Notes under the pieces: generated by a model | The model's database searches: none | Told to the model about the DNA's origin: nothing | The model's input: the letters and a program-made list of their open reading frames with translations, nothing else | Source of the DNA: an uncultured Spirochaetales bacterium | GTDB taxonomy: Bacteria; Spirochaetota; Spirochaetia; Sphaerochaetales; Sphaerochaetaceae | Length of the DNA: 39,426 nt | Direction: 5' to 3' | NCBI GenBank assembly: GCA_944392695.1 | Contig: CALXXN010000017.1 | Span: 1-39,426, forward strand | Position numbers and translations under genes: made by a program | In this document: piece by piece, positions 22,655 to 36,571 of the stretch | Position numbering within the stretch: the first letter of the stretch is position 1 | How the letters are laid out: each line of letters opens with the position of its first letter

Positions 22655-22717
22655 GTCTCAACAGTAAGTTGCCCTAATGACCAAGTCAATAAACATGGAC
22701 GCCTGCTAAAAGTACAT

Positions 22718-22806
22718 AAATTGTAAAATAGTGCAATCTGGAAAGGGTGAAACTTGTCAAACAGTGTATTCTGAGTAGTGCGAAACATGTCAAATACTGC
22801 ATTCCA
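22718..22806. repeat. Repeat family 1, array A: three direct repeats with 33-bp period
   Basis: Three 23-base cores start at 22718, 22751 and 22784, exactly 33 bases apart. Shared core, first 20 bases: AACWTGTCAAATASTGCAWT, then TCTG or a close variant. The last ten bases of each 33-base unit vary more, often ending in GTRCGA. The first unit has two differences from the first unit of array B; units two and three align with the first two units of array B, including linker. The array lies 64 bases upstream of the alpha/beta hydrolase start and 224 bases before the first ATPase. Confidence 0.9.
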
Positions 22807-22968: not shown

Positions 22969-23038
22969 AAGTTTTTCTGGGTTTTCAGTATAAACTTTAC
23001 AAATGATAAAAGTTTTCCTAGAATTCAAGTATGAATAT
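22969..23038. repeat. Repeat family 2, first pair: imperfect palindromes with 41-bp period
   Basis: Two related units begin at 22969 and 23010, exactly 41 bases apart. Each runs about 29 bases from AAGTTTTYCT to a right half like AGTATRAA. The first folds as AAGTTT..CTG..CAG..AAACTT. The second unit contains the start codon of the first ATPase gene. A matching pair with the same 41-base period occurs at 25856-25925. Confidence 0.8.
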
Positions 23039-24233
23039 AAACAGACCTGATTATATGCATAAGTTGCTTTCGGCCATTGATATCCCATTGGTGAAGATCC
23101 TCAATGGTGTACGCAGGTCTGGAAAATCGACGCTCCTGTCAATGTTCAAGGAAGAACTCGTCAAGCAGGGGAAGAATCCTGGAAACATAATCTATCGACG
23201 CTATACGAGCTTAGGTGATGCAGCTGTCGTTGATGCTCCTTCAATGTATAAGGAGCTTGCCTGCATGACAGAGGGCAAGGGGAAGTGCTACCTGCTGCTG
23301 GATGAGGTCCAAGAGGTCGATGGCTGGGAAAAAGTGGTCAACTCACTGTATGAAGACATGGGACATGACCTCTATGTCACAGGTTCCAATTCGAAGCTGT
23401 TGGCAGGTGAGATGAGCACATACCTTTCTGGGAGGTATATCGAAATCGCTGTCTTCCCTCTGTCTTACAGGGAGTTCATCGATTTCAGGATTGCTTACGG
23501 AATCCAGGGGACTTCCATCATGGATTACATCCGGCTTGGGGGCTTTCCTGTCATCTCAACAGGAGCTTTTGATCACAACACGGCTTACCAGGTCGTGGGT
23601 GGTATCTACTCATCAATCGTCATGAGGGATATACAGCGTCGTCATAAAATTGCGGCCATGGATCTCTTCAACCGTGTTGTGGATTTCATCATTGAGAACA
23701 TGAGCCATACATTCTCAGCCAGCTCAGTTGTCAAATTCCTGAAATCCCAGCACAGGTCATTAACCACGGAGAACGTCTATGACTACATTACATGGCTGGA
23801 GGAGGCCTTTGTCACATACAAGTGCAAGCGCTATGACTTGAGAGGGCGTGATGTCCTCCAGACACAGGAGAAATATTATCTGTCAGACCACTCCCTCAGG
23901 TATGGAATCAAGGGCTTCCAAGGTACGGATGTTTCAGCAATCATTGAAAACATCGTATACGTGGAACTGCTTAGGCGTGGGTATTCCGTCTACATTGGTA
24001 AGCTCTATGACAAGGAGATAGACTTTGTCGCCCAGAAGCTTGAACCTGCAGGGTGTATCTATATCCAGGTCTGTAGGAACATGCCCGAAGTATCCGATAG
24101 GGAAGTGGCAAACCTTAAGGCGATAAAGGACAACTACCCAAAGTTCGTTATCACCTTGGATGAGTATTCGACTGCCGATATCGATGGCATCAGGATCATC
24201 CCGCTGAAAGACTTCCTGCTTTCAGATATTTGA
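23031..24233 (+). CDS. AAA_14/DUF4143-type ATPase (first copy)
   Basis: A 400-residue protein. Residues 1-150 are a compact AAA domain: Walker A GVRRSGKST at 26-34, Walker B YLLLDEVQE at 87-95, sensor TGSNSKLL at 117-124, then the FPLSYREF element. A middle helical region follows, and the C-terminus (IENIVYVELLRRG, YDKEIDFVA, YIQVCRN) is the DUF4143 domain, which has a PD-(D/E)XK-like fold; the usual E-x-K is QVC here, so nuclease activity is doubtful. The family is common, multi-copy and of unknown function. The start ATG lies inside a family 2 repeat and lacks a clear ribosome site. GC content and codon use are lower than in the neighbouring core genes. Confidence 0.92.
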   Translation: MNINRPDYMHKLLSAIDIPLVKILNGVRRSGKSTLLSMFKEELVKQGKNPGNIIYRRYTSLGDAAVVDAPSMYKELACMTEGKGKCYLLLDEVQEVDGWEKVVNSLYEDMGHDLYVTGSNSKLLAGEMSTYLSGRYIEIAVFPLSYREFIDFRIAYGIQGTSIMDYIRLGGFPVISTGAFDHNTAYQVVGGIYSSIVMRDIQRRHKIAAMDLFNRVVDFIIENMSHTFSASSVVKFLKSQHRSLTTENVYDYITWLEEAFVTYKCKRYDLRGRDVLQTQEKYYLSDHSLRYGIKGFQGTDVSAIIENIVYVELLRRGYSVYIGKLYDKEIDFVAQKLEPAGCIYIQVCRNMPEVSDREVANLKAIKDNYPKFVITLDEYSTADIDGIRIIPLKDFLLSDI

Positions 24234-24282
24234 AGCCTCGCTTTGACATCAATTTCTGTATTGGCTGGATTCCAGTAGATTA

Positions 24283-24337
24283 TGAGACGACCCTGTGTGT
24301 GGATGCGCAGGGCCGTCTCAGTCATTTGGAATGAGAC
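24283..24337 (+). terminator. Strong stem-loop with an alternative pairing arm after the first ATPase
   Basis: Positions 24283-24297 pair with 24306-24320 (15-bp stem with one A-C mismatch and one G-U; loop of 8). A third segment, TGAGAC at 24332-24337, can pair instead with GTCTCA at 24315-24320, and AATGA (24330-24334) with TCATT (24322-24326). It lies 49 bases after the ATPase stop and 36 bases before array B. It is terminator-like, but a U-run is missing, and the mutually exclusive pairing recalls an attenuator. Confidence 0.45.
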
Positions 24338-24372
24338 TTGTTTGCTGTATAGTTCCTTCGTTAGCAAGTACA

Positions 24373-24461
24373 AACTTGTCAAATAGTGCAATCTGAGGAG
24401 TACGAAACATGTCAAATACTGCATTCTAATAGATGCAAAACTTGTCAAATACTGCATTCTG
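24373..24461. repeat. Repeat family 1, array B: three direct repeats with 33-bp period
   Basis: Cores start at 24373, 24406 and 24439, again exactly 33 bases apart, with the same 23-base core as array A. The second and third cores differ from each other by only two bases. The last core ends 15 bases before the ATG of the second ATPase gene, leaving no room for a separate promoter downstream, so the array lies in the promoter or leader. AAGTACA precedes the first unit here and also precedes the first unit of array A. Confidence 0.92.
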
Positions 24462-24476
24462 GGTCAGAATGGAACC

Positions 24477-25763
24477 ATGGATAGACGTCAGTTGGAACGG
24501 ATCCTGCGCAACCAGGAGCATGAGTTCAAAGACTTGTTGTCCCAGGACTGGGTATCACGTCCTGAAGAATCTCTCGTCAATTTGCATAGCCGGCTTGCCC
24601 AGGTCGTAATCGGAGTGAGGCGTTCAGGCAAGTCCACCTTGTGTATCAATGTGATCAAGAAATCCGGACTTGACTTCGCTTATGTGAACTTTGAGGATGA
24701 GCAGCTTTCCCTTATACAAGCATCTGACTTGGATACTGTGCTTGAATGCCTGTACCAGGTTTATGGGCAGTTCAATCATCTCTTCATGGATGAAATCCAG
24801 AACATAGATGGTTGGCAGTATTTTGTGAACAGGCTCCTACGCAGTGGCATGCATGTGCTCATGACAGGCTCAAATGCAAAACTGCTTTCCAGTGAATTGT
24901 CAACGCATATGACTGGAAGGTATATGCCCATTGAGATTTTCCCGTTCTCGTTCGCTGAGTACTGTATGGCAAAAGGACATGGACTCAGGCATGGTTCTAC
25001 GAAAGAGAGTGGTCTTCTGCGCAGGGCTTTTGATGAATACATCATGGGTGGGGGCTTTCCTGAGTTGATGTTTGAGGACCGGAAAGAAGCTTACATACAG
25101 GAGCTTGTCACGGGTATACTCTCAAACGACATAGAGAAGCGCTTCAAGATAGCCTATAAGGACGCGTTTGAGCGTATGGCACAGCATATCATGAACATCG
25201 CACCTGTGAAGATCAACTATGCGGATCTTGGGAGGCTCTTCGATTTCAAATCCCAGCATACCGCTGAGAACTATGTTGGGTATCTTGAGAAAGCTTATCT
25301 TCTTTGCATGATTCCGCGGTTCTCGTATAAGAGCCATTCCCGTGTCACAGGTAGCAAGGCATATACAGTCGATGTTTCATTGATGAACATGAGGCGGGAT
25401 GCTTTTGCAGCTGCCAACCTCGGCTGGAGGCTTGAGACGATTGTCCTCATCGAACTCCTCAGGAGGAACAGGTCCAAGGGAAGACATGTCGCATACCTTG
25501 AAGACAGGAGTAGTGAGTGTGACTTCCTCGTGTGTTCAGGACTCAATGTGTTGTCTGCAATCCAAGTCTCCTATGACGTCTCCAACTCGAAGACTCTCAA
25601 GAGGGAGTTGAAAGGGTTGATAATGGCTGCAGAGAAGACAGGTTGTGAAGACCTCATCCTTCTGACAGATCATGAAGATGAGGCCATTGAGGAAAGTGGA
25701 CATCATATCAGGATCCTCCCTGTTCATGCCTGGCTTGTCGATGGTTATCCAGATCTGGAGTAG
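24477..25763 (+). CDS. AAA_14/DUF4143-type ATPase (second copy)
   Basis: A 428-residue relative of the preceding ATPase with the same domain order: a short N-terminal helix region, Walker A GVRRSGKST at 46-54, Walker B HLFMDEIQNI at 101-110, TGSNAKLL at 130-137, IFPFSFAEY, then DUF4143 with SSECDFLVC and AIQVSYDVS as the PD-(D/E)XK-like remnant (QVS in place of E-x-K). The two proteins are clearly different in sequence, so this is not a recent tandem duplication even though the upstream arrays are close copies. ATG at 24477 has only a weak GGAA upstream. Function of the family is unknown. Confidence 0.92.
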   Translation: MDRRQLERILRNQEHEFKDLLSQDWVSRPEESLVNLHSRLAQVVIGVRRSGKSTLCINVIKKSGLDFAYVNFEDEQLSLIQASDLDTVLECLYQVYGQFNHLFMDEIQNIDGWQYFVNRLLRSGMHVLMTGSNAKLLSSELSTHMTGRYMPIEIFPFSFAEYCMAKGHGLRHGSTKESGLLRRAFDEYIMGGGFPELMFEDRKEAYIQELVTGILSNDIEKRFKIAYKDAFERMAQHIMNIAPVKINYADLGRLFDFKSQHTAENYVGYLEKAYLLCMIPRFSYKSHSRVTGSKAYTVDVSLMNMRRDAFAAANLGWRLETIVLIELLRRNRSKGRHVAYLEDRSSECDFLVCSGLNVLSAIQVSYDVSNSKTLKRELKGLIMAAEKTGCEDLILLTDHEDEAIEESGHHIRILPVHAWLVDGYPDLE

Positions 25764-25855
25764 TCATGTCGCCAGCTTGATGTTTTCCTAGGTACCAGGG
25801 ATGTGTTTCTGTACAGCTGAAATGAGCAAATTAGGAATTGGTTGGTTTGGTTTTA

Positions 25856-25926
25856 AAGTTTTTCTGGAATCCGAGTATGAACTTCAAGAGACTTGGAAGT
25901 TTTTCTGAATTTCCAGTAAAAAACTT
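25856..25926. repeat. Repeat family 2, second pair, downstream of the second ATPase
   Basis: Two units start at 25856 and 25897, 41 bases apart, matching the pair at 22969. The first reads AAGTTTTTCTGGAAT and continues into AGTATGAACTT; the second folds as AAGTTTTT..CTG..CAG..AAAAACTT. No recognisable ATPase gene follows, so this could be the leader of a lost copy or the right boundary of a mobile unit. Confidence 0.75.
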
Positions 25927-27012
25927 GAGGAAATACAAGCTTCCCTGGCCTTATAGCATTACTTCAGTGTATAAAATTTTTAAAATATACTACCGAAATA
26001 AGATTGATTATTTTGGATATTGATACGGAGAAAAATCTGACATCACCTTATCGTCAGATGTTAAAGAACAACTGTTTTGAATTGGTTTCTTGTAATGGAC
26101 ATCAAAAAAGCTGCAACTAACTGATGTCCTGTAATGTAATGTAATGTGGGCATCTGATGATTTGTATAGTTCCCCGTAGATGAAATGCTGCTGAATGAAA
26201 ATGAGGGGCATTCATCCAGCATGCAGGACAATGTGAGTTAGAATCCTGAGATGTCAGGTGCGATTCAAAATGAAACAGCTTTTCCTATGTGAATAAAAAT
26301 GATTACAAATATTAATACTATGGTTTAAAATGCAAAGTAATATTTATAAATTATGTAAATACATGCAGATTGATTTGAGACAATATCATTTTATTAGTAT
26401 TATCATATAGCTTCACTTGCAGACAGAAACCCATTTTGTATTTTTCTCTTGGCTGTGGCATGGACCAGATCCAAGGTCCTGGGAGTATGTTCGAATGGTT
26501 GATACAGATGCGTCAGAGGGGCAGGCATTTTCCGACTGACGTTACATACCCGTCATAATCAGTTGGGTTCACTGTAGAAGGACGTTGAAAACACATTTGC
26601 TTTTATAGAGTATTCCATAGTCTCGCAATGTGTTCTGTATGGCACATGGTTATTTTCGTCAATGTTCCCATAGGTGTTTGAATGTGAAATGAATTAGAAA
26701 AAATGAAAATGCATATTTAGTCTGTATCTAATGAAATCTTAATGTTATGTATATTATATTGTTTAGATAGTTTAATATGTATTTATGGTATATAAATTAT
26801 ATTAATTATAGATAGATTTATATTAATAATATCAGTTATCATATCATAATAAATCTTGTCCTTTGAAGTGGTAGGAAGAGAATCGTATATGGGATTCTGA
26901 TTTGTAGTAGTGACAGGGTAGGGTGTGCGTCTTTTCAAAGCCTCCTGAAATGGCCTGTGACACATTTGCGAGTGGCTTGAGTGAAATACTACACTCAGGC
27001 GTGATGATGCAG
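25927..27012. other. About 1.1 kb AT-rich region with no convincing gene
   Basis: Composition is far more AT-rich than the core genes, especially 26281-26420 and 26690-26860, which are almost only A, T and short words. All open frames are short and lack ribosome sites. Features seen: GGACATC/GATGTCC hairpin (26097-26129), three tandem TGTAA units at 26130-26145, an AGAATC/GATTCT inverted repeat (26879-26898) and a TGAGTG/CACTCA inverted repeat (26978-26997). A fragment at 26440-26540 has higher GC and might be a decayed gene, but the product is not recognised. Confidence 0.6.
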
Positions 27013-27037
27013 CCAGAGGCCTTCTATTGGCTTCTGG
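27013..27037 (-). terminator. Hairpin after the lipoprotein gene
   Basis: A 9-bp stem (27013-27021 with 27029-27037, one G-U pair, loop of 7) lies 17 bases beyond the lipoprotein stop. No U-run follows on the minus strand, so termination would be Rho-dependent or weak. Confidence 0.4.
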
Positions 27038-27054
27038 TGGATTGCTGATTACTA

Positions 27055-27639
27055 TCACTGGTGATTTGCCAAATCGACGATTACGAATGGGGATGCATTG
27101 ATGAAGGCAGGAGTCCTGTCGTCGTACCAGGCGTCAGGATAAGCGTACATGCAGGTGATTGTGCCAAGACAGGGACGCAGGCCCAACCTGTCATAGCCAC
27201 TCTCTTCTTCCTGGCAGGCAGTCCCTATGTCGTACTGTACCATCACCCAGCCGTCGTACCTGTCATCAGGGAAATAGAAATGATAAACAGGCATGTATTC
27301 ATTCCAGCCTGTGACAAGGTCATGCTCGAAAGTCCCTTCGTAAGTACAGGTCCCTGTATATGTCTTGTAGGGCTTTGTCTCAACTTCGTCATTGTGTACC
27401 CAGTGGAGTGCGAGGTCTGCTGATACTTCCTTGTAAAGCTCATCAATGCCTTGACCGAGTTCCAATGTGTACATGGTGCTTCTGTAACTGTTGACTTCGC
27501 AGACAGCCTCATAAGTCCCTGCTATAAGTGGCCTGTTGATGATTGACTGATAGGGGATATAGTCCGAGTCGAACTCACAGCCTGTCAGGATAAGCAGGAT
27601 TGAGATGAGGGCCAGTATGAGGCTCTTGGCGCTGCGCAT
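27055..27639 (-). CDS. Putative lipoprotein of unknown function
   Basis: A 194-residue protein with a lipoprotein signal: MRSAKS, hydrophobic LILALISILLI, then the lipobox LTGC with Cys at residue 20. The mature part (EFDSDYIPYQ...) is rich in Tyr and Asp and holds four further cysteines, with beta-strand-like patches (YEAVCEVNSY, HFYFPDDRYDGWVMVQYDI). No family is recognised. The ATG at 27639 has GGAGG at 6 bases; the upstream open frame is not coding. It sits between the AT-rich block and EF-G II, 116 bases from the latter's 3' end, and is likely transcribed alone or by read-through. Confidence 0.8.
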   Translation of the reverse strand: MRSAKSLILALISILLILTGCEFDSDYIPYQSIINRPLIAGTYEAVCEVNSYRSTMYTLELGQGIDELYKEVSADLALHWVHNDEVETKPYKTYTGTCTYEGTFEHDLVTGWNEYMPVYHFYFPDDRYDGWVMVQYDIGTACQEEESGYDRLGLRPCLGTITCMYAYPDAWYDDRTPAFINASPFVIVDLANHQ

Positions 27640-36373: not shown

Positions 36374-36571
36374 TCAGGGTTTAGGAAAGGATGTTGGTGC
36401 CCAGGACCTCCTTCCCAGGCTTCCCTGTTTCCTTATCCACAAGGTGGCAAGATCCACAAGGTGGCAAGGCCTTGCCTTGGCAAACTGCTCCCTTCGTGGT
36501 TTTAGGGAGTCTGGGTAATCAATACCAGTGATGTTCCTGATTTCTTCCAAACGTTTCAGTGAAACACTCAT
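36374..36571 (-). pseudogene. Antitoxin-like gene disrupted by a tandem duplication
   Basis: The frame starts at ATG 36571 with MSVSLKRLEEIRNITGIDYP and continues to AKARPCHLVD. This resembles the N-terminus of small BrnA-like or related antitoxins, which often read RLEEIR...IDYSDIPEL and HLVD; that match is from memory and tentative. After HLVD a 17-bp duplication shifts the frame to a nonsense tail ending at 36374. With one copy removed the frame reads HLVDKETGKPGKEVLGT and stops at a TAA at 36381-36383, giving 57 residues. The ribosome site is weak and no toxin partner is beside it. Confidence 0.5.
36435..36468. repeat. Perfect 17-bp tandem duplication
   Basis: ATCCACAAGGTGGCAAG occurs at 36435-36451 and again at 36452-36468 with no differences. 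Because 17 is not a multiple of three it breaks the antitoxin-like reading frame. Perfect identity suggests a recent event. Confidence 0.97.

Follow-up and report, generated by a model that had tools for sequence, protein, structure and literature searches.

Two adjacent ATPase genes of an uncultured Spirochaetales bacterium lie between the housekeeping genes trmB/abhydrolase and EF-G, and short repeats of 2 families, each with its own fixed spacing, occur before, between, and after them. The question raised by this locus is what the repeats are: element boundaries, remnants of decayed cassettes, sites recognized by the encoded proteins, or chance matches. The window, meaning the whole stretch of DNA that was analyzed, is 39,426 nucleotides long, and its relevant features are collected in Table 1. 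The repeats are real, and both ATPase genes have a private array at their start. Family 2 (F2) is the private array of ATPase 1 and family 1 (F1) is that of ATPase 2. The reading we favor, and take to be probable by a modest measure, is that each array is the private recognition array of the ATPase it precedes, with cognate binding, control of the gene's own transcription, and orphan arrays as its component parts.

Table 1. Repeat arrays and ATPase genes of the window, with positions counted from its first nucleotide.
Feature	Position	Strand	Description
Probable orphan family-1 array	22717..22806	+	Three 24-bp units, 33-bp period; ATPase 2 array motif
Family-2 array of ATPase 1	22969..23038	+	Two ~29-bp near-palindromic units, 41-bp spacing
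ATPase 1 (P0001, 400 aa)	23031..24233	+	AAA_14 + DUF4143 (Pfam); PADLOC PDC-S01
Family-1 array of ATPase 2	24372..24461	+	Three 24-bp units (AAACTTGTCAAATAGTGCATTCTG), 33-bp period
ATPase 2 (P0002, 428 aa)	24477..25763	+	AAA_14 + predicted winged helix + DUF4143 (PD-(D/E)XK-like); PDC-S01
Putative orphan family-2 array	25856..25925	+	Two ~29-bp near-palindromic units, 41-bp spacing; gene-less downstream

F2 units start at 22969, 23010, 25856, and 25897, with successive spacings of 41, 2846, and 41, and over 22 nt they are 77-82% identical to the reference copy. When both spacers are shuffled 500 times with dinucleotides preserved, the left pair scores p<0.002 and the right pair p=0.014, while the left-right match and the common spacing of the two pairs are each at p<0.002. 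The first-pass annotation had reported these four units and their exact 41-base spacing, and both stand. It had also described a near-palindromic right half; the palindromy is there, but it extends over the entire ~29-bp unit, as in AAGTTTTTCTGAATTTCCAGTAAAAAACTT at 25897-25926. Its placement of one pair over the start codon of ATPase 1 and of the other after ATPase 2 with no gene following is likewise borne out: the ATG at 23031 falls within the second left unit (23010-23038), and the first ORF of at least 80 aa on the 3' side of the right pair is 26783-27058 on the minus strand. The AT-rich stretch 25927-26782, more than 850 bp long, contains no ORF of that size, which is unusual in a window that is otherwise gene-dense. 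A genome-wide search for the 41-base pairs, proposed at the same time as a check, matches the F2 pattern with up to 3 mismatches at 22969 and 25856 only, both in the window. Because spacer DNA is AT-rich, random matches with no biological meaning were considered as an explanation and rejected, the shuffle values (p<0.002 to 0.014) and the family-wide enrichment described below leaving them a negligible probability.

F1 units start at 22717, 22750, and 22783 and again at 24372, 24405, and 24438, which makes the order F1, F2, ATPase 1, F1, ATPase 2, F2, as had been claimed. The units of the first triple have 2 mismatches each to the F1 pattern, and that triple aligns with the array at 24366-24459 at 81% identity over 96 bp (E = 2e-19). 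The ATG of ATPase 2 is 15 nt past the end of its array. Elsewhere in the genome, F1 has one solitary 3-mismatch match only; with F1 and F2 absent apart from this weak site, there is no wider regulon. The window also contains, at 36435-36468, a perfect 17-bp tandem duplication, ATCCACAAGGTGGCAAG.

That DUF4143 genes start in or just after such arrays, another expectation of the first-pass annotation, is found across the gene family. This genome has 17 DUF4143 genes and its genus-mates have 2 to 14 apiece, most with their own distinct upstream repeat set. Upstream direct repeats exceed z>4 in 60% of 120 distinct genes, a sample that contains some mutual orthologues and is hence not wholly independent, and control rates in the same genes are 0.8% within the gene and 7% downstream. 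About 40% are without a significant upstream direct repeat. Among significant arrays, the offsets are concentrated at 23-24, 32-34, and about 41 bp or doubles of these, whereas control offsets are scattered. From array end to start codon, the median is 37 nt with an interquartile range of about 24-52, where the start codon was chosen and the −10/−35 placed by simple rules together with a consensus search that was biased. The threshold of z>4 is passed by 30% of 56 genes drawn from other genera of the phylum and from plasmid relatives, and the same periods recur in corresponding subclasses. The highest-scoring DUF4143 subclass in those other genera mostly lacks direct repeats, and there a palindrome tends to occur instead.

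The period follows the protein. In 72 of 75 genes, the period class is that of the nearest protein relative, taken at less than 70% identity and at a different locus, versus a mean of 32 and a maximum of 48 in shuffles. In 32 of 33 cases, the 23-bp class and the ExD(A/T)V...EIK type of protein go together, and the unit of this class is made of a clade-wide part (GAAAATA..GCCAA) and a gene-specific part, scoring 8.9 bits versus at most 5.3 in shuffles. When the covariation of protein segments with the motif is divided by domain, the winged helix is not singled out.

Array and gene also travel together. When two proteins at non-homologous loci exceed 70% identity, they have the upstream stretch in common in 34 of 34 pairs and the downstream stretch in 3%. 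Upstream sharing fades with protein divergence and is near background below 40% identity, and a stricter window placed further upstream gives 50% sharing versus 0% for a distal control. Non-syntenic copies are usually homologous from the array to a point about 10 bp beyond the stop codon, and these limits identify array plus gene as the inherited unit. The F1 motif is still recognizable beside relatives of P0002 from Bacteroidales (47% aa identity) and from another genome of the Spirochaetaceae (72%). Beyond position 671 of a Spirochaetales MAG locus (L080), on the 3' side of a P0002 relative, are four ~22-bp units, GGAAATCTCGTCGGTTGATAAT, a set of different type that is possibly another orphan array. 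Two loci in different species with different flanks (L138 in G014:C40, L141 in G010:C15) are 94% identical over ~2 kb around the ATPase gene, probably by recent transfer. Plasmids of Treponema saccharophilum and Arcobacter cloacae (L190 and L191) carry one DUF4143 gene each, one of them between hsdR and a methyltransferase gene (hsdR/hsdM) and the other between cas3 and cas4.

As to the proteins, PADLOC profile PDLC04787 matches P0001 at E = 1.2e-138 and P0002 at E = 3.1e-88, and 10 of 10 relatives tested also match PDC-S01 models. Both window proteins have the PDC-S01 architecture of an ATPase fused to a PD-(D/E)XK-type domain. Neither has the catalytic D...(E/Q)xK of an active PD-(D/E)XK nuclease: the motif reads EIDF...IQVC in ATPase 1 and ECDF...IQVS in ATPase 2, with Cys and Ser, respectively, in place of the catalytic Lys. 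Other DUF4143 subclasses of the same genus retain EIK/EVK and thus an intact nuclease motif. Pfam finds no transposase domain in either window protein. One stop codon interrupts each of two ATPase 1 relatives (TGA in L022, G011:C28; TAG in L029, G010:C3), which is consistent with frequent gene decay.

The predicted structure of ATPase 2 (mean pLDDT 79.6) has the AAA domain, at 228-297 a segment ordered helix-strand-helix-helix-two-strand, in our reading a winged helix, and a C-terminal alpha/beta domain that carries the E-x-D...IQVx motif, this domain from predicted secondary structure only. The best Foldseek row for this model is an archaeal Cdc6/Orc1 on origin DNA at E = 2e-4, with TM-scores of the fold matches low at about 0.3. 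For the AAA+/winged-helix part, a second aligner gives Z = 11.1 to archaeal 2fna and Z = 10.3 to 2qen, which are archaeal AAA+ ATPases of unknown function, and scores STAND/NLR proteins about equally, so the fold search does not discriminate. It returned no nuclease fold row for the C-terminal domain, which it barely probed. The Cdc6/Orc1 row, and an anatomy like that of an initiator gene with iterated sites of its own next to it, could be taken to mean that the arrays are iteron-like replication or maintenance sites and that the unit is, or derives from, a tiny replicon with the ATPase as initiator. Given TM-scores at that level and other folds scoring as well, that is highly improbable; moreover, the units studied are mostly chromosomal, and no free small circular replicon was found in a viral-contig scan, which gave 15 relatives with the smallest contig at 6.8 kb.

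Under the preferred reading of private recognition arrays, the ATPase would use its winged helix to bind the array before its own gene, and the AAA+ protein would assemble on successive, evenly spaced units. One consequence would be that it controls its own transcription, most simply by repressing it, as suggested by the arrays ending at the core promoter or start codon. Private sites at the promoter or start of the presumed binder's own gene are the anatomy of an autoregulatory operator. Array and gene are inherited and transferred as a unit, with genes frequently lost and arrays staying behind.

The last of these steps is approached through locus comparisons. In three orthologous comparisons, repeats with the gene in one genome face repeats without the gene in another. 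G014:C27 has three units and the gene where G008:C4 has two units and the gene's last codons only, and those codons indicate a deletion. The arrangement array-gene-array in G013:C8 corresponds to a single array in G015:C13 and to neither array nor gene in G012:C4. For a second G013:C8 gene, which has two units, the G012:C4 counterpart is three units with the gene missing. Such differences might instead mean that a minimal mobile unit recombines or inserts at the arrays, its gene moving from one to another, perhaps via the ATPase-nuclease itself. The G013, G015, and G012 series fits that account, as do three cases in which the breakpoint between presence and absence coincides with a repeat's right edge, the single units inside the hsdR/hsdM and cas3/cas4 operons, and the range of 2 to 17 genes per genome within the genus. 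A significant direct match between flanks is found in 10 of 118 genes, about half of which speak for the same account by bearing their own array on both sides, and inverted flank repeats are found in 4 of 118. However, most genes have an array on the left side only, constant element ends or terminal repeats and a consistent target duplication are absent among the genes compared, the losses can be explained by homologous recombination or microhomology deletion, and the codons retained in G008 are the mark of deletion and not of clean excision. We judge the mobile-site explanation unlikely. The suggestion in the first-pass annotation that the pairs are element boundaries is not supported in general, given flank matches in so few genes and homology between non-syntenic copies that mostly stops shortly after the stop codon.

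Some duplications around individual genes were noted. ACAGCGCTCCT flanks the inserted stretch on both sides in G015:C13 and occurs once in the empty site of G012:C4, a possible 11-bp target duplication in a single case (L174/L108 vs L175; G015:C13, G013:C8, G012:C4). In L119 (G008:C6) and L120 (G014:C7), the 3' end of the upstream host gene and its terminator are repeated after the ATPase gene, at least ~50 bp at ~75% identity, resembling an old target-site duplication; L020 has a similar 40-bp duplication.

Returning to the window and the recognition-array reading, the three comparisons in which the array is kept and the gene absent make the F2 pair at 25856-25925 best read as an orphan ("ghost") array, plausibly what is left of a copy that decayed behind ATPase 2; the F1 triple (22717-22806) is probably a second orphan. 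Our reading of F1-[F2-ATPase 1]-[F1-ATPase 2]-F2 is two complete units and two orphans, from which we infer a former alternating run F1-gene-F2-gene-F1-gene-F2-gene whose first and last genes were lost. The composite of cassettes proposed earlier survives insofar as the pairs belong to a cassette-like unit of array plus gene, but the two families are the private arrays of the two ATPases and not types of element. The decayed third cassette agrees with arrays outliving genes in the locus comparisons, but no gene remnant lies beside either orphan (best tblastn E = 0.04), and decay is a suggestion of those comparisons. Among nine genus-mates, no ATPase lies between trmB and EF-G and no repeat remnants were seen at the syntenic gap, which is empty or holds other cargo, divergence being too great for exact boundaries. 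An alternative for the orphans is that each is a second functional site, such as would have ATPase 2 acting on the ATPase 1 promoter.

PDC-S01 is an experimentally untested, single-gene PADLOC phage-defense candidate; it is reported to be the fourth most common defense system across prokaryotes, with ~39,500 instances in one survey, and to be the most frequent individual locus in the rumen, with no mechanism known (PMC12988326, PMC13356809). That affiliation (PMC12988326), the persistence of arrays after gene loss, and the intact nuclease motif in other subclasses are what recommend the explanation that the ATPase-nuclease is tethered to, or titrated by, the array on self DNA until phage takeover or array loss releases it, as defense or addiction. 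Both window proteins lack the catalytic Lys, and autoregulation is a simpler account of the anatomy; we consider such restraint very unlikely here. A broader proposal, rather improbable as it stands, is that PDC-S01 genes form a large set of self-addressed modules that diversify fast, in which each AAA+ ATPase/nuclease-like protein assembles on its own private array and the array, beyond tuning expression, keeps the protein tethered or restrained on self DNA or steers the movement of the unit. If so, each new specificity would arise by co-evolution of array and protein, and orphan arrays would be traces, or protection after gene loss.

Open-license PMC full texts yield no description of arrays for DUF4143, COG1373, PF13635, PF13173, or PDC-S01. 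The private array beside the gene is a probable DNA ligand for many PDC-S01 members at once, which makes binding, oligomerization, and regulation directly testable. PDC-S01 genes regarded as "embedded" in defense operons could also be read differently, as self-contained units with their own control region that may sit in any type of operon.

Comparing with known systems, the window genes resemble PDC-S01 (AAA_14 + DUF4143, COG1373) in the ATPase and PD-(D/E)XK architecture of PMC12988326, and differ in lacking the catalytic Lys and in having housekeeping neighbors (mfd, trmB, alpha/beta hydrolase, EF-G) that do not make a defense island. With insertion sequences and Tn7-like ends they share compactness, mobility, and repeated sites close to the gene, but here there is no transposase domain, no terminal inverted repeat, and no consistent target duplication, and the array is usually one-sided. 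Tandem-operator autorepressors, such as those of toxin-antitoxin systems and phages, likewise have a private operator with multiple phased sites at the promoter or start codon; here the presumed binder is an AAA+ ATPase of 400-450 aa, and which spacing occurs (23, 33, or about 41 bp) depends on the protein clade. Iteron-controlled Rep and archaeal Orc1/Cdc6 are DNA-binding proteins whose genes lie beside their own regularly spaced repeats, and Orc1 is an AAA+ protein with a winged helix. The likeness is a presumed DNA-binding gene adjoining its own regularly spaced direct repeats, whereas the units described here are many per chromosome, each has another motif, and their proteins carry a C-terminal nuclease-like domain.
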